From Desulforamulus ruminis DSM 2154 (GTDB lineage Bacteria > Bacillota > Desulfotomaculia > Desulfotomaculales > Desulfotomaculaceae), in assembly GCF_000215085.1 (NCBI RefSeq), contig NC_015589.1, positions 1,178,001 through 1,242,000 on the forward strand: a stretch of DNA of 64,000 nucleotides, written 5' to 3'. The notes beneath the pieces were generated by a model. That model ran no database searches. It was not told the DNA's origin and saw only the letters and a list, made by a program, of their open reading frames with translations. Shown here in pieces: positions 27,000-35,778 of this stretch (position 1 is the first letter of the stretch; every line of letters starts with the position of its first letter). The position numbers and the translations under genes were made by a program.

Positions 27000-27101
<102 letters not shown>

Positions 27102-27362: not shown

Positions 27363-28442
27363 GTGGGTAATCTGGACATTAAGACATTAACACCTTTATG
27401 GACCGGTGGGGTCGGAGGAAAAGTGGACCGTATCCATGAAACGGGTCTTTTGGGCAGCATGCGTTGGTGGTATGAAGCGTTGGTGCGGGGGCTGGGCGGT
27501 GAGGTTCACGGTGGTCCCGGATTGGATTATTGTAATTTTAAAGCAGATCAATATAGAAATTTTGAGATAGAGAATGAAACCGAATATTTAAGGGCGGCCG
27601 GCTTGTGCGACGTATGCCAGATATTTGGGGCAACGGGATGGAAGCGGCGCTTTTATTTGTCCATAGTAGAAAAGGATATTAAAAACGAAAAAATTCAACA
27701 TCCGATCAAAGCTATCCAAAGGAAATATACAAATGATGAAGGAAAAGAGCGGATCCCTACTTGGTACTTTCCAGAATCCGACTTAAAAGGAGCTCCACCT
27801 AATACGCCTAAAACCGGAACTTTTGAGATGCAGATACAAAGCCGGGATCATAGATTTTCGCCGGATATTATTGGCGGACTGATTCAGTTTATAGCCGACT
27901 GGGGGGCACTGGGAGCCAGAAGCCAAATGGGGTTTGGAATTATTGAGCCGGTGAACGGTCCCTTTGACACCCGACCGTTATACCGGAGGCTTGTTGCCGC
28001 TTCCGGCAGTCGAAGCTATGCCGGATATCCTTCCTTAAAAAATATCTTTTGGACTTGTATCAGGACGAAGAAAACCGGAAAAGAGGAAACTTTCAATTTG
28101 AAATATGATTTGCGGCGGTTATTCTCCGATGATCCAAAAGTACGTCATTTTGTCATGGGGACTTCACTTAAAAGCGGAGAGCGAATGGCGTCCAAGGTGA
28201 AAATATCCCGTCCCTACGGCGACGGGCGAATACGCATTTGGGGCTGGATTCCGGAAAAAGCGAATTGCTATGGGAAAGCATGGGACCGGAACAGGATTGT
28301 TGAAAGAATCTATCGTTATTTAACTGAAAAATATAACCTGGAGTTTTGGCGGGAGATGGACAATTCACGGGATTCCGTTACGCCGAATACCGGTGATGCC
28401 CGACGATTTTTGCAGAGCCTGCTGGGCATTAAGGAGGGATAA
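27363..28442 (+). CDS. Cmr1-like RAMP protein of a type III CRISPR effector
   Basis: This 359-residue RAMP-superfamily protein begins DIKTLTPLWTGGVGGK, the Cmr1 opening, followed by GLLGSMRWWYEALVRGLGG (RAMP helix). The block LCDVCQIFGATGWKRRF has a CxxC pair. Cmr1 sits at the head of the type III-B complex and touches target RNA. A RAMP glycine-rich loop (GALGARSQMGFGIIEP) is seen near residue 185. GTG start close to an AAGGAAG. It is the first gene of the operon, and a nine-codon open frame with an ATG at 27341 overlaps its start. Confidence 0.85.
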   Translation: MGNLDIKTLTPLWTGGVGGKVDRIHETGLLGSMRWWYEALVRGLGGEVHGGPGLDYCNFKADQYRNFEIENETEYLRAAGLCDVCQIFGATGWKRRFYLSIVEKDIKNEKIQHPIKAIQRKYTNDEGKERIPTWYFPESDLKGAPPNTPKTGTFEMQIQSRDHRFSPDIIGGLIQFIADWGALGARSQMGFGIIEPVNGPFDTRPLYRRLVAASGSRSYAGYPSLKNIFWTCIRTKKTGKEETFNLKYDLRRLFSDDPKVRHFVMGTSLKSGERMASKVKISRPYGDGRIRIWGWIPEKANCYGKAWDRNRIVERIYRYLTEKYNLEFWREMDNSRDSVTPNTGDARRFLQSLLGIKEG

Positions 28443-28443
28443 C

Positions 28444-29802
28444 ATGCCGCTGGATTATTATGCTTTTCAAAAGACCGGAATAACCGAAAATGCTATGGGG
28501 TTCCGGGAACCACATCTGGCCTATTTATACGAAGCGTTGGATCATAATGAGAATGGCTCTGTACGCAAAAAATGGCAGAAAAGCTTAAAGGTCGAAATGA
28601 ACCCCTGGCAGGAAAAGCATTACGATTTTTGTAAAATACCCGATGCATTCAGCTTTGTTCCGGATATATCCGCAATTCAGCAAATGCCTTGGTTTAGCTT
28701 CCTGCTTCAAATACCTTTTAAGCTGCGGAAGCCTTATCTTAGCAAAAATGAGGAAGCTTTTTACCTTTTAGAAAACCCGCTGCGGCGGGAAAAAATATTT
28801 AAGACGCCCATGGAGGCTGCCTCCGGCTGGAAGGGCGCACTGCGGGCGGCGATGCTGCAGCAGCTGGCCCGGTGGTGGACGGGGCTGGAAACATTGGAAA
28901 AGGCGGAACGTGTCAACCGTAAAAAATTTGTTTCCCGACGCTTACAACTGATAAGGCTGTTCGGTACGGAACGAGGTTTTTATGAAAAGGACAACCGGTA
29001 TCTGGATAAGCTGGGAGGGAAGCTCCAAACCTGCTGGTTTCAACGATGCTTAAGATTTTCCATGACCGACAGCGGCTTTATTGCCGGTAGGCTCCACTTT
29101 TTCCCGACTTTCTTTCAGGAAGTGGGACTGGAAGTGATCAATCCTCATGATTCTAAAACCGGAACAGGAAGCGAAAAAGGGCCGATTTTACTGGAGTGTG
29201 TGCCCCAAAAGGCCGAGGGAGTATTTACCCTTTTATATGTGCCCGTGGGTTCCTTTGATACAAACTGCAGGAAAGAAGTAGCCCGGGATTTGGAATTCTT
29301 AGCAGACGGGATAAAAGCCATGCTGACCCAATATGGTTTTGGCGCTAAAACCGGCAGCGGCTTCGGGATTGCGGAAGAACGCTTGAATGGAGAAGGCAGG
29401 CTGACCCTTAAATGGGACTGGCCGAACAAAGCGATTGAAGAGGAAGGAACAACGGGACCGGCTCCGGGCCTGCCCCGTTATCTGGAGGCACCTAACCGGT
29501 TGATTGAAGAACTACACTGCCCCGATAACAGCTTAAAGGAAGAAGCGGCGTACCGGCAGTGGTTGGAAGACCGGGGCCGTACATATAATAAGGAGAAAAA
29601 ACAGCTCTATAGCAAGGCGAAAGCCTGGTGGGAAAGGGAAGGGGGATTGCTTCCGGAAGCAGCCTCCCGGGACGGAGAAAAGGGAAGGCCTTCTCAAAAC
29701 CAGCTGCCGGTGGCAACGGAGGTTACTTTTAACACATTGGAAAATCTCCGCAGTCAGGCCCGAAAGATTGCCGACCGCCTGAAGGAGGGAGGGACCGTAT
29801 GA
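28444..29802 (+). CDS. Cmr6-like RAMP protein
   Basis: This 452-residue protein carries RAMP features. GWKGALRAAMLQQLARWW is the conserved helix after a Gly/Lys turn. The block VGLEVINPHDSKTGTG resembles the Cmr6 D-x-x-NPH motif, and YGFGAKTGSGFGIAE is the glycine-rich loop near the RAMP end. The last 120 residues are charged and helical and are longer than in usual Cmr6. ATG with GGAGG 6 bases upstream. Its stop overlaps the cas10-like start (ATGA). Family membership is likely; the exact Cmr6 equivalence is an inference. Confidence 0.65.
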   Translation: MPLDYYAFQKTGITENAMGFREPHLAYLYEALDHNENGSVRKKWQKSLKVEMNPWQEKHYDFCKIPDAFSFVPDISAIQQMPWFSFLLQIPFKLRKPYLSKNEEAFYLLENPLRREKIFKTPMEAASGWKGALRAAMLQQLARWWTGLETLEKAERVNRKKFVSRRLQLIRLFGTERGFYEKDNRYLDKLGGKLQTCWFQRCLRFSMTDSGFIAGRLHFFPTFFQEVGLEVINPHDSKTGTGSEKGPILLECVPQKAEGVFTLLYVPVGSFDTNCRKEVARDLEFLADGIKAMLTQYGFGAKTGSGFGIAEERLNGEGRLTLKWDWPNKAIEEEGTTGPAPGLPRYLEAPNRLIEELHCPDNSLKEEAAYRQWLEDRGRTYNKEKKQLYSKAKAWWEREGGLLPEAASRDGEKGRPSQNQLPVATEVTFNTLENLRSQARKIADRLKEGGTV

Positions 29803-32642
29803 ACAACCTGATTATCCTGGAAGAAAACCGTGCGTCTTTATTGCTGGCGGAAGCCGTAGGCTGGCTGCATGACTATTTTAAATGTTCTGAGGAGTTTTTG
29901 CAGGAGCAATTTTCTAACAGCAAAGAGAATAATGAAAGGGAAAAACTTTTAAAGACAAGCTTGGTGGTAGAAATTATTAATAAAAATGAAAAAGATTTAG
30001 GTGAAATACAGCTTTCTTTTCCTATAGGGGAAAAATTGACCGCTCCCATCCCGAAGCTTTTGCATGCTAGTTTCTATAGGAGCGCCTTAGGTGAAAAATG
30101 GGAAAAGGATGGCTTACTAGGCTACCTCTCCCGCTGTCATCGTACATCCCATTTCGACAAACAAAGACGGAATGGGGGGAAGCAATCTTACCCGGGAACT
30201 AAGATTAGTACGCCCTTCGGCTCTGAAAAAGATGTCCCGAATTGTTTGACTGAAAGACTAAGGGCGCTGCCCTGGAATGACCTGCTGGATTATAATCCTG
30301 AAAAACGGAAAAAACTGCGTGAGAAACTGGAAGCGCTATTTTCTGAGGCATTGGCCGATACCCGCCGACCTATTAATGAGGTGGATCTGTGGAGCTGGGG
30401 GTTGCTGGTAGGCTCGTTGTATAAAGCCGCTTTGGCCGGAGCACTGCTTACGGAAGATGTCAAAAAGCAGGATGAACTTACATGGCGGCTGCTGGGGGTC
30501 CGGTTCAAAGGCCTGGACTATATCTCGGAGGTATCCCGCATTCCCGATCTGCTGGCCCGGCAAAATTTGTTGCGGCATGGCCTGGACAGGGTGCGTGAGC
30601 TGCTGGAGGTTACCTATCCGCTGGGGAGTGAAGTCTACCGGGACGAAAACGGCAGTGTTTATGTGGTGCCGGATCTGGAGGACTTGCTGCAAAGGACGGA
30701 CGGAAACGGTAAAAGTCTGGAAACTTTGATAAAGGAAACATTTCAGAAGGATCCTGGGGAACAGAATGTTAAACTCCAAGTTGAGGGTGAGATTCAGCCC
30801 CATATTAAATTGGAAGAAAAGTCTTGGCATGGACAAGACCCTAAAGACTGGAGGAAATATCAGTTACCTGAAATTGGAAAGTTTCTTTCCGCTGTGCCTA
30901 TATCACAGGCGGATCCCAATAAAATAAGGCATTTTTGGCAGCAGCACACTGCGGATGTTTGCGCCGTATGCGGTTTGAGGCCCCAAGGGCCGGGAAGAAA
31001 ATCCACGCAGCGTTCGGTATGTGATGTTTGTGAAAAGCGGCGTTCGGACCGTTCCAAGAATTGGGCGGAAAATTTGCAAGAAACCATCTGGACGGAAGAA
31101 GTGGCCGATGTAAACGGCCGTGTAGCCCTGGTGGTAGGACAGTTTGAGCTAACCCACTGGCTGGACGGCGTATTTTTAAGTTCCCTTTTTGTCATTGAAC
31201 CCGATCCCGGCAAACAGGAACAACAAGAAGTCAGCAAAACGCCTTCTTTCAGCCGCCTGCGGCGTATTTGGGAAACAACACGCCGGTTCTGGCAGGAAGT
31301 GCGGGATGAAGTTCTGGAAACCTCTTGTACCAAGCAGCCGCGGCTTAAAATTTACCTCAGCGCGGAACCCAAGCTGGGGGACTACCATGTCTATGATTTG
31401 GTTCTGGGCTCCGTGGACCTGGACGTGGTTTGGATACCGTCGGATAAAGGGACGGGCTGTCTTCTCAGCGCTGCCAATCTGGAGTATATTGCCCGTCGGT
31501 TGGGAGCGAAAGAAACGGAAAACCACCTGCCGGAAAAGGCCGCGGACTATATAAAAAAATGCCTTGAGCAGTTGTACGCCGGCCAACCGGTGCTGCGGAA
31601 CCCCGAAGGCCGAACCGATCGAAAAAGCCCAAACCTTTTGGAGGGTATAACCATTACCCGTATAGACTATGAGGAGACCCCCTATGCGCCTGTTATCCCT
31701 TTGCTGGCGGAGCCCCGTGCTTTTATGATGCTTGTGCCGGCCTGCAGCAGTCTTCGGATTATAGAGAAAATTAAAGAAAAATATGAGCGGGAAATGGGCA
31801 AAGTAAAGGATCGCCTGCCCCTGAGTTTGGGCCTTGTCCATGCCGGGCGTCGTATACCGGTCCGTTCCCTGCTGGAAGCGGGACGGGCCCTGCTGGATAA
31901 ATCCGTTTCTTTCGAGATTTGGCGGGTTGGAAAAGATCAAAACGGCAAGTCCGAAATCGGAGCTTCCATGGAAGGCCGGTCCCTCCTGATTTTGGAGCAG
32001 GATCGACCTCCTTTCAGACGTCATTTTCCCTTTAATATGAAAGACAAAAATCCCAAGGACCCCTGGTATCCGTATCTCTTCCTGGCGCAAAAGCGGACTG
32101 GAAAAAACGGGGAGGCCGTGAAAAGGAGGGAAGCGGAAGCGACGCTGCCGCTGGGGAAAAATCAAACAAGGCCCAACCGGGTTGTTCACGCAGCGAATGT
32201 GGAAGAAGGCGATCAGATTTATTTTTATCCGTCCACCTTTGACTTTGAATTTTTGGATACCAATGGCCGCCGTTTTGAAATTTACTATGATCAGGAGGGG
32301 CGTCGTCCCCGCCGCACCCGGCCTTTCTATTTAGAGGGTCTGGACTGTTTCAAAACCATATGGAACTGCCTGCAGCACCTGTCCAAAACTCAGCGCCATC
32401 AGTTGATCCGCACCATTGAATGCGTCCGGGAAGACTGGTATGGGCAGGATGCCGGGGGGGTGTCCTACGTTGATGAAGTATTTTCCCGTTTTGTTGCCGA
32501 CACCTTGGCCGGAGCAGCCTGGCCCCGGGGGAAAAAATGGGAGGAGATTCCCGAAAGGATACAAAGAAAATTGGTTAAGGCCGGGGTATGGGGTGAACTG
32601 GCTGATCTGGCCGAACTGCATATGGAGATTTTGAAACAATAA
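29799..32642 (+). CDS. Csx11/Cas10-like large subunit lacking GGDD cyclase motif
   Basis: This 947-residue protein has the size, position and layout of the type III large subunit. An N-terminal HD-like dyad, LHDYFK, is at residues 23-28 (H24, D25). A treble-clef zinc motif uses C388, C391, C408 and C411. A first palm-like block VALVVGQFELTHWLDG lies near 443, and a second palm domain near 635-700 ends in LPLSLGLVHAGRRIPVRSLL. Where active Cas10 has GGDD, this protein reads MMLVPACSSL (about 643-652), so cyclic oligoadenylate synthesis is unlikely. This matches Csx11-type subunits linked to subtype III-C. The HD dyad may still bind metal. Confidence 0.78.
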   Translation: MNNLIILEENRASLLLAEAVGWLHDYFKCSEEFLQEQFSNSKENNEREKLLKTSLVVEIINKNEKDLGEIQLSFPIGEKLTAPIPKLLHASFYRSALGEKWEKDGLLGYLSRCHRTSHFDKQRRNGGKQSYPGTKISTPFGSEKDVPNCLTERLRALPWNDLLDYNPEKRKKLREKLEALFSEALADTRRPINEVDLWSWGLLVGSLYKAALAGALLTEDVKKQDELTWRLLGVRFKGLDYISEVSRIPDLLARQNLLRHGLDRVRELLEVTYPLGSEVYRDENGSVYVVPDLEDLLQRTDGNGKSLETLIKETFQKDPGEQNVKLQVEGEIQPHIKLEEKSWHGQDPKDWRKYQLPEIGKFLSAVPISQADPNKIRHFWQQHTADVCAVCGLRPQGPGRKSTQRSVCDVCEKRRSDRSKNWAENLQETIWTEEVADVNGRVALVVGQFELTHWLDGVFLSSLFVIEPDPGKQEQQEVSKTPSFSRLRRIWETTRRFWQEVRDEVLETSCTKQPRLKIYLSAEPKLGDYHVYDLVLGSVDLDVVWIPSDKGTGCLLSAANLEYIARRLGAKETENHLPEKAADYIKKCLEQLYAGQPVLRNPEGRTDRKSPNLLEGITITRIDYEETPYAPVIPLLAEPRAFMMLVPACSSLRIIEKIKEKYEREMGKVKDRLPLSLGLVHAGRRIPVRSLLEAGRALLDKSVSFEIWRVGKDQNGKSEIGASMEGRSLLILEQDRPPFRRHFPFNMKDKNPKDPWYPYLFLAQKRTGKNGEAVKRREAEATLPLGKNQTRPNRVVHAANVEEGDQIYFYPSTFDFEFLDTNGRRFEIYYDQEGRRPRRTRPFYLEGLDCFKTIWNCLQHLSKTQRHQLIRTIECVREDWYGQDAGGVSYVDEVFSRFVADTLAGAAWPRGKKWEEIPERIQRKLVKAGVWGELADLAELHMEILKQ

Positions 32643-32656
32643 AGGAGGCGAAAACA

Positions 32657-33691
32657 ATGGCTACTTATAGACGGCAGCGCTATCTTTTTATGTCCACCGA
32701 TCCGGTGCATGTGGGCACGGGCGGGTACCGCCTGGGGAGGGTGGACAACAGCATTGTCCGGGAACCGGGCACACGGGTCCCCAAAATTCCCGGTACCAGC
32801 CTGCACGGCGCAGCCCGGTCCAATGCGGCCCGGCTTTACGAAAATCCGGCTGCCGCCGGAAGAGATCACGGTAAAGTGGACAAGCCGCAGGGGGATCCGA
32901 TATGCTACACCTTCGGTTATATTCAACAGGCAGATGGTTCGAGGGAGGAGGTTCGCGCCTATTCCGGCGTGGTTAATATTTTTGACGCCTTGGTTCTTGC
33001 TTTTCCGGTATATTCCATGGCCGGCCCCGTTTGGATCAGCACCTACGAACGTCTAAAAGAAGCCGGATTTCGCATCAGTAATCCTGAACAGGGGAATAAA
33101 CCGGAAGAATGGACTCCGCCTGAAAATTGGGAGGCCGGCAAGGTTTTCTTAACCTGGCAGCGCAGCGATATTCTCAACTTGGGATGGCTGATGATGGAAG
33201 TGGGCGGTGGGGTTTCGGTGCAAGCGCCATCAAATTGGAACAATGAAACACGATGGAAAGCCATTGCCGATCATTTGGTATTGGTAAAGGAATCGATTTT
33301 CAGCCAAATAGTCAACAGCAATCTGGAAGTACGTACCTCGGTAGCCATTGACCCTGAGCGGGGGGCAGCCGAGGAAGGGGCCTTATTTACCTATGAGGCT
33401 TTGCCCCGGGCCACCTTTCTTACCGCCGAAGTGGTGCTGGACGACGACCGTATGGATTGGCCGCTGAAAACAGAAGAACGTCAGCGGAAGACATTCAAAG
33501 ACAAGGCTTTACCCGGAGGCTGCTGGAACGGACCGCTGGCGGTGGTACAGTCCGGTTTGCGTCTGATAGAGTGGCTGGGAGTAGGCGGCATGGGTACCCG
33601 TGGTTTTGGGCGCATGGCCATGATCGGTGATCCTGTTGAAGAAACTTACGGAGGGAGAGACGGCGATGCACAGCCCGGCGACAATTCTTAA
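32657..33691 (+). CDS. Cmr4-like backbone RAMP (Cas7 family)
   Basis: This 344-residue Cas7-type backbone subunit opens LFMSTDPVHVGTGGYRLGRV and continues with DNSIVREPG and IPGTSLHGAARSNAARLYE, the standard Cmr4 pattern. D30 lines up with the catalytic aspartate that cuts target RNA in Cmr4 of Pyrococcus, so RNA cleavage appears retained. The glycine-rich loop WLGVGGMGTRGFGRM is near the C-terminus. AAAGGAGG upstream of the ATG. It overlaps the Cmr5-like gene by 26 bases, so translation is coupled. Confidence 0.85.
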   Translation: MATYRRQRYLFMSTDPVHVGTGGYRLGRVDNSIVREPGTRVPKIPGTSLHGAARSNAARLYENPAAAGRDHGKVDKPQGDPICYTFGYIQQADGSREEVRAYSGVVNIFDALVLAFPVYSMAGPVWISTYERLKEAGFRISNPEQGNKPEEWTPPENWEAGKVFLTWQRSDILNLGWLMMEVGGGVSVQAPSNWNNETRWKAIADHLVLVKESIFSQIVNSNLEVRTSVAIDPERGAAEEGALFTYEALPRATFLTAEVVLDDDRMDWPLKTEERQRKTFKDKALPGGCWNGPLAVVQSGLRLIEWLGVGGMGTRGFGRMAMIGDPVEETYGGRDGDAQPGDNS

Positions 33692-34067
33692 TTTGGATCG
33701 ATTGGCGGCTAAGCACGGACAAGCCGTTATTGGACGGTTGGTTGACGAAAAAAAGATAAAAGCCGGCGATGTGGACAATAGCGTCACCAAGGCTTTGGGC
33801 GTATTACAGGAAAACGGCGTTTATGCCTGCTTTCTCTACCTTTTGGCTAAAGAAAAAAATAACGGCGGCATTGTGGTGCAGGAAATGCTTAATCTGCTGG
33901 AGAATCTGGGATATGGCTGGGGAAAACCGGTCGACCAAAAGCCGGATACGGTACTGGCCTACCTTACTGATAAAGTGACAAAGCAGCTGGAACCCTTGCT
34001 TCTGGCCAAAGAAACTCTGGAAAAAATGTTGATTTACGCCCGGTATGGGGCGAAAGCCAAGGAGTGA
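33666..34067 (+). CDS. Cmr5-like small subunit (Cas11)
   Basis: This 133-residue, mostly helical protein lies directly after the Cmr4-like gene, the usual place of Cmr5. The segment LDRLAAKHGQAVIGRLVDEK near the start and VTKALGVLQENGVYACFLYL are consistent with the small alpha-helical subunit that lines the effector filament. The open frame starts at 33627, but the ATG at 33666 follows GGAGGGAG by 8 bases. The stop overlaps the start region of the next gene. Confidence 0.8.
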   Translation: MHSPATILNLDRLAAKHGQAVIGRLVDEKKIKAGDVDNSVTKALGVLQENGVYACFLYLLAKEKNNGGIVVQEMLNLLENLGYGWGKPVDQKPDTVLAYLTDKVTKQLEPLLLAKETLEKMLIYARYGAKAKE

Positions 34068-34072
34068 TGGCA

Positions 34073-34942
34073 GTGGCCTGGCAGATGTATAAGGTAATAT
34101 TGCGGTTGTGTTCTCCCCTGCATATCGGATGCGGTAAAATCGGAAACCTGCAGCGCACCTATCCTTATGTAACCGGTAGAGTCATGTGGGGTGCATTAAC
34201 CATGCGCCTGACCCGGGATAAATGCAAAGGAAATGAGATTAATGATTCCAGCATCTATCAAGAGGTTGGTGAACAGGTTCATCGGGAACTGGCTTTTACC
34301 TATTTTTATCCGGTTCTTTCATCGGGAAATCACTATCAGATAGAATGGCCTTGGAAGGACCAAAGGGCATTCCGGTATCGCTTTCTGAGCAGCTATGCCG
34401 GAACGGCTCTGGACTATCCTCAGCAGTCCGCGGCCCGGGGCATGCTGCGGGAGACGGAATTTATTTCTCCTTATACCTTGGATGAGGGCAAGCGTGTGTT
34501 TTTACAGGGCTATATTTTTGAAAAGAAAGGGTGTACCCTTTCTTGGCAAGAGGCTGTAAAACGGCTGCAGTTTGGGGGTGAACGGAGCTATGGTTGGGGC
34601 AAGGTTAAACCTGTAGCGATCAATCCATGCAGGGAGGATGACAAGCTGTTTGATAAAGGAATAAAATTTCTAAAATCAGACGAAAGGCCAAGGGTGTGCC
34701 TGCCGGCCAAAGCGAGACTATTAGCCCATACGGTTGCTGCCGAAAATCCATTTGCCGACGGCCCAATCGAGCCTCTGGCGGGGCGTGAATGGCGTCCAAA
34801 TCAAAAGGGCAATGCTTATGTGGGGCAGCATATTGCATTTAATGAGATTTGTTTTGCTCCCGGAAGTGTCCTAGTAAATAATGATAACCATTATGATTTT
34901 CGGATTGATCCTTTTGGCGTTTGGAGGTTAAGTGAAAAATAG
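34073..34942 (+). CDS. RAMP-superfamily subunit, possibly Cmr3/Csx10-like (Cas5 group)
   Basis: This 289-residue RAMP protein opens KVILRLCSPLHIGCGKIGNL, with YVTGRVMWGALTMRLTRDK as the RAMP helix. It has FISPYTL and a second glycine loop, FGGERSYGWGKVKPV. The last pattern recalls the GGE-type loop of Cas5-group RAMPs such as Cmr3 and Csx10, so it may take the 5'-handle-binding role; no other gene here fits that role. It is shorter than usual Cmr3. The GTG at 34073 lies 8 bases after AAGGAG; an ATG six bases earlier is too close. Last gene of the operon. Confidence 0.6.
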   Translation: MAWQMYKVILRLCSPLHIGCGKIGNLQRTYPYVTGRVMWGALTMRLTRDKCKGNEINDSSIYQEVGEQVHRELAFTYFYPVLSSGNHYQIEWPWKDQRAFRYRFLSSYAGTALDYPQQSAARGMLRETEFISPYTLDEGKRVFLQGYIFEKKGCTLSWQEAVKRLQFGGERSYGWGKVKPVAINPCREDDKLFDKGIKFLKSDERPRVCLPAKARLLAHTVAAENPFADGPIEPLAGREWRPNQKGNAYVGQHIAFNEICFAPGSVLVNNDNHYDFRIDPFGVWRLSEK

Positions 34943-35080: not shown

Positions 35081-35365
35081 ATGATGAACATGCTGGTGGA
35101 AATACAACAGAAATCTCAGGTGACGATTCCCAAGGAATTATTAAAAAAACTTAAACTGAAACCCGGCGATAAGCTGCAGGTGGAAGAGAAGGACGGCCGT
35201 CTGATTATTACTCCGGTTGCCATTATTCCCCGGGACCAGATGTGGTTTTATTCTAAAGAATGGCAGACGGAGGAAATGAAAGTCGAACAACAAGTACGGG
35301 AAGGCCGGGTAAAAACGGCTAAAAGCAAAGAGGAACTGCTAAAAGGGTTGGGGTTGAATGAATGA
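35081..35365 (+). CDS. AbrB/MazE-type antitoxin-like DNA-binding protein
   Basis: This 94-residue protein has a SpoVT/AbrB swapped-hairpin domain (VEIQQKSQVTIPKELLKKLK, then PGDKLQVEEKDGRLIITPV, residues 4-47). Its C-terminal helical tail would contact the toxin. ATG codons occur at 35081, 35084 and 35090; AAGGAA directly precedes the first, so the third may be used. A TATAAT about 35 bases upstream could be its -10 box. It overlaps the toxin gene by 4 bases. Confidence 0.85.
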   Translation: MMNMLVEIQQKSQVTIPKELLKKLKLKPGDKLQVEEKDGRLIITPVAIIPRDQMWFYSKEWQTEEMKVEQQVREGRVKTAKSKEELLKGLGLNE

Positions 35366-35628
35366 TAAACCTGTACTATTCTGAGTTTTTTGCGGATAAG
35401 GTTAAGCGGCTTTCCTTAGAGGAAAGAAGAGTATTGAAGAAAAAACTTGAGTTTTTGATGGAGAACCCTCGCCATCCCTCACTTCGTACCAAGAAAATTC
35501 AGGGACAGGACCGCATATTCGAGGCAAGTATTACGATGGAAATTCGTATGACCTGGGAATATATGGAGGACGGCGGCATTCTATTGCGGAATATCGGAGA
35601 ACATGATAAAACACTGAAGAGTCCGTAG
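35362..35628 (+). CDS. RelE-like mRNA interferase toxin
   Basis: This 88-residue RelE-superfamily protein has LYYSEFFADKVKRLSLEER, a central HPSLRTKKIQGQDRIFEASI, and the C-terminal RNIGEHDKTLKSP, a pattern seen in YafQ/RelE-like toxins. ATG overlaps the antitoxin stop. The pair lies between the type III operon and the second tRNA-Val copy, inside the repeat-bounded segment, and may stabilise it against loss. Confidence 0.85.
   Translation: MINLYYSEFFADKVKRLSLEERRVLKKKLEFLMENPRHPSLRTKKIQGQDRIFEASITMEIRMTWEYMEDGGILLRNIGEHDKTLKSP

Positions 35629-35676: not shown

Positions 35677-35778
<102 letters not shown>

Follow-up and report, generated by a model that had tools for sequence, protein, structure and literature searches.

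The window, a 64-kb stretch of the Desulforamulus ruminis genome (one contig, 3.97 Mb), carries a Cmr-type gene cluster and a toxin-antitoxin-like pair between two copies of a tRNA-Val gene, with the following features:

27000..27101, + strand: tRNA-Val(TAC) and terminator, left copy of a 102-bp exact repeat
27363..28442, + strand: Cmr1, Cas7-type RAMP (TIGR01894 1.1e-18, above cut-off; PADLOC Cmr1)
28393..29802, + strand: Cmr6, Cas7-type RAMP (PADLOC Cmr6 3e-84)
29799..32642, + strand: Csx11/Cas10c, type III-C large subunit, 947 aa (TIGR02682, PADLOC Cas10c, AlphaFold2 model)
29865..29882, + strand: HD dyad LHDYFK (H24, D25) in Csx11 (family alignment)
30138..30158, + strand: H114, H118 and D120 of Csx11, probably the other half of the HD metal site (H118 retained only alongside the dyad)
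30960..31031, + strand: Zn finger C388, C391, C408, C411 in Csx11 (alignment)
31710..31721, + strand: EPRA (residues 638-641), where active Cas10 has GGDD (HHalign; hairpin turn in the model; P639 in 82/83)
31722..31754, + strand: FMMLVPACSSL, strand and helix start behind the cyclase site (translation, family alignment, HHalign, model)
32657..33691, + strand: Cmr4, backbone RNase (TIGR02580 8.4e-28)
32744-32746, + strand: D30, predicted catalytic Asp of Cmr4 (alignment with VDLPIQRE of solved Cmr4)
33627..34067, + strand: Cmr5, small subunit (PADLOC Cmr5 1.7e-42)
34064..34942, + strand: Cmr3, Cas5-type RAMP (PADLOC Cmr3 8e-95)
35081..35365, + strand: AbrB/MazE-type antitoxin-like protein (PF04014 4e-11)
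35362..35628, + strand: 88-aa probable toxin partner, inferred (gene overlaps that of the antitoxin; matches no family)
35677..35778, + strand: tRNA-Val(TAC) and terminator, right copy of the 102-bp exact repeat

The Cmr-type RAMP genes and Cmr5 share an operon with Csx11 (Cmr1, Cmr6, Csx11, Cmr4, Cmr5, Cmr3), and the predicted products make the locus a complete type III-C effector operon. The antitoxin-like pair at 35081-35628, inside the tRNA-Val bracket, has a G+C of 0.41, lower than the rest of the cassette.

The Csx11 ORF matched TIGR02682 with 436 bits (3.6e-130), above the cut-off of 248.95, and PADLOC Cas10c at 4.8e-227. Its AlphaFold2 model, built from an input alignment of 51 rows, reached a pLDDT of 87.4 and a pTM of 0.91 and aligned with solved Csm1/Cas10 chains over nearly its whole length (582 residues, Z 15.3, rmsd 4.1), in agreement with the preliminary description, according to which the fold around the cyclase site is kept. 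A sequence search found no solved Csx11 structure. Judged by these matches the gene is an ordinary large subunit of a known subtype, type III-C; Csx11 has been described as an inactivated Cas10 (Makarova 2011, PMC3150331). Membership in type III-B (Cmr2) was rejected on the ground that the large subunit has no GGDD-type motif, and TIGR02577 had no match in the genome.

To locate the lost cyclase motif, 83 Csx11 proteins were compared by HHalign with 15 canonical Cmr2 proteins, of which 14 carry GGDD and one SGDE. The two families aligned with a Prob of 95.6 and an E of 1.3e-8, and the GGDD columns fell on E638-P639-R640-A641, the pairing at palm2 being IPLLAEPRAFMMLVPA over SLIYSGGDDVLALVPL in short form and Csx11 IPLLAEPRAFMMLVPACSSL with Cmr2 SLIYSGGDDVLALVPLHKVL in the longer one. 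In the AlphaFold2 model residues 638-640 form the hairpin turn between strands 633-637 and 641-647, which is the position of GGDD in active Cas10. The preliminary description was thus right that the second palm-like region of this Cas10-like subunit has no GGDD, and its placement of the change needs correction: frame +1 of 31716-31800 translates to RAFMMLVPACSSLRIIEKIKEKYEREMG, residues 640-667, and the MMLVPACSSL read there as the replacement corresponds to VLALVPLHKVL in active Cmr2. MMLVPA is the next beta-strand, conserved throughout the family, and the residues that stand in place of GGDD are EPRA, slightly upstream. LPLSLGLVHAGRRIPVRSLL was found at 31815-31874.

The family set consisted of 83 distinct Csx11 proteins; an alignment-based scan of genome contigs yielded 80 loci and a single-protein scan none. 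Because P639 is kept in 82/83 homologues and GGDD occurs in none (0/83), the missing motif is not a matter of chance. The commonest strings at 638-641 are EPRT, SPDQ, EPST and EPAI. These data support the loss of the palm2 cyclase site from Csx11 with retention of the fold. That the palm makes a nucleotide signal using other residues appears highly improbable: although the palm2 fold, the strand, the helix and the LPLxLG segment are conserved across the family, the 83-protein alignment holds no conserved acidic pair in the hairpin or around it (an acidic residue stands at 640 in 18/83 and at 641 in 1/83), and a DD pair displaced to another part of the palm, named beforehand as the finding that would overturn the assignment, was sought and not found. 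When scanned with PADLOC, the cassette and 43 other proteins of the window showed no CARF, Csm6, Csx1 or other cyclic oligoadenylate (cOA) effector, as had been noted from the sequence before, and no such effector is known for type III-C (PMC11229360). The TIGR01897 CARF profile had no match in the whole genome with working controls, a result that leaves room for other CARF proteins outside the window. The earlier expectation that this complex probably does without cOA signalling is supported by the lost site and by the effector-free window.

Two acidic residues at 638-641 were seen in one row only, LTDE in L053. This divergent Csx11 (L053:6842-10567), whose palm2 matches PF22335 above the Pfam cut-off, could be a half-degraded intermediate of cyclase loss, its tree position being unsafe on a very long branch.

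The N-terminal HD dyad LHDYFK, also pointed out in the preliminary description, is present at 29865-29882 and accompanied by H114, H118 and D120. Among 81 scorable Csx11 rows the dyad is found in 52, and H118 occurs in 40/52 rows with the dyad and in 0/29 rows without it (Fisher 1.3e-12, only indicative as the rows are related), as expected of parts of a single metal site that are retained or lost together. A Csx11 tree, built by a quick method and rooted at the midpoint, requires 7 changes of the HD state, of which well-supported branches force at least 6. Cmr4 D30 aligns with the Asp of VDLPIQRE, which we take to be the catalytic Asp of Cmr4, and its equivalent is kept in 79/79 III-C loci checked, including all 29 without HD. 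The presence of both the Cmr4 Asp and the HD dyad is in line with the proposal that immunity would rely on Cmr4 RNA cutting and perhaps on HD. Our reading of the family is that RNA cutting is predicted to be constant and HD DNA cutting optional, the cyclase being gone. Were the HD domain inactive here too, the module would act only through RNA cutting by Cmr4, which is also the likely state of the HD-less III-C lineages. Such a state would fit the repeated loss of the dyad while the Cmr4 Asp stays, as well as the YFK in place of IGK behind the dyad (LHDYFK vs LHDIGK); we nevertheless consider it unlikely, as the Csx11 of the window retains the dyad together with H114, H118 and D120 and sits in a well-supported clade of ten rows that all (10/10) carry the dyad.

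No CRISPR array was found in the 64-kb window, and most III-C loci are without arrays (PMC12669027). Elsewhere in the genome, two arrays, of 33 and 59 repeats, belong to a I-C locus; a I-B locus encodes Cas6 and has an array of 49 repeats, the repeat of which starts GTTACTAGCCTACCTATAAGGATTTGA. In other genomes some III-C loci have arrays with similar repeats in their vicinity (L054 GTTTTTAGCCTACCTATC vs GTTACTAGCCTACCTATAAGG in Desulforamulus ruminis), which fits crRNA sharing in trans. We favor, with a probability of about 85%, a III-C (Csx11) module that combines crRNA-guided RNA cutting by Cmr4 with a target-activated HD DNase and makes no cOA, where we infer the activities, the crRNA source and the activation by target. 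The Cmr1-3-4-5-6 and Csx11 complex would take up crRNA probably processed by Cas6 of the I-B locus, presumably from the I-B array, and would bind complementary transcripts, which Cmr4 would cut. Target binding would switch on the N-terminal HD domain of Csx11 as a DNase, and palm2 would be structural only, so that no cOA would come from the III-C complex. Counter to this mechanism, the cell could carry the module but not express it.

The III-C and toxin-antitoxin-like cassette is bracketed by the exact 102-bp direct repeats, 8,677 bp from repeat to repeat. Seven congeneric genomes show the same rpoD - tRNA-Asn-Met-Glu-Val surroundings with one tRNA-Val, Csx11 and Cmr1 being absent; in 6/7 the same chemotaxis gene follows tRNA-Val and in the seventh other genes. 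The single tRNA-Val and the absence of the cassette in the congeners indicate that the module was probably inserted with duplication of the whole tRNA gene, and an insertion of this kind is the most likely origin of the III-C module. There is no integrase inside the bracket. The module may have entered either through an integrase acting in trans or by homologous recombination with donor DNA that has a tRNA-Val gene. In the seventh congener (L074:2594-10565, G398), which is without the chemotaxis gene, dehydrogenase- and transporter-like genes (by eye) lie between tRNA-Val and a TrmK-like gene, and the content of this site may thus vary among congeners.

A search with PF22335 located an apparent type III-D module on the same chromosome, 2.36 Mb from the III-C locus:

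C1:3565556-3574412 (L037:1556-10412): type III-D module with genes for Cas7_IIId, Csx19, a double-Cas7 protein, Cas5_IIId, Cas7_IIId, a 543-aa Cas10d and NucC

The NucC match adjoining Cas10d scored 1.9e-100. The Cas10 of this module carries AGDD (in IIFAGDDISFIVPG), one of the motif variants found with known effectors (PMC11229360), and lacks an N-terminal HD as judged by its length and sequence start. An AGDD Cas10 and NucC in the same genome suggest that the cell probably signals by cOA through the III-D module, that is, from a complex other than III-C. Another PF22335 match, at C1:3874811, was rejected as a Cas10, being a GGDEF-domain protein. A second, cyclase-type Cas10 was counted in 10/22 genomes with Csx11 vs 42/188 others (Fisher p 0.033; by eye from match tables at about E 1e-10, kinship ignored), which is only suggestive of its being commoner in Csx11 genomes. 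It is conceivable, if rather doubtful, that the two Cas10 complexes complement each other, perhaps with shared crRNAs, III-C having HD and no cyclase and III-D having an AGDD cyclase without HD that feeds NucC; if true, cutting and signalling would be divided between the two modules.

Among known systems the locus agrees with type III-C in its large subunit family, Cmr-type operon, lost cyclase motif, lack of a cOA effector, HD in part of the family and lack of an array beside the operon, and differs in nothing essential, the tRNA-Val bracket being particular to the D. ruminis genome among those examined. Type III-B shares homologous Cmr1, 3, 4, 5 and 6 and the large-subunit fold; unlike Csx11, its Cmr2 carries GGDD and usually comes with cOA effectors. 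In types III-G and III-H, too, the cyclase domain of Cas10 is inactivated and effectors have been lost (PMC12669027), but these types differ in gene content and form separate Cas10 clades. The cyclase loss is the published general state of type III-C, not a peculiarity of this locus, and finding it here is a rediscovery: III-C systems have neither cyclase sites nor effectors, and half of them have HD (PMC11229360), and the 2025 classification lists III-C among the subtypes with an inactivated cyclase domain (PMC12669027). A literature search for the phrase 'type III-C CRISPR' returned no paper containing it. New here are the exact site, the family-wide counts, the coupling of HD residues and the repeated HD loss with a constant Cmr4 Asp, together with the site of insertion and the complementary module of III-D type with NucC. 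The survey confirms on many sequences that III-C, as a branch of type III, is free of signalling; on our reading, Cmr4 RNA cutting would be its constant part, and loss of the HD nuclease has occurred repeatedly. Csx11 members with and without HD are good test cases for the contribution of each Cas10 activity.
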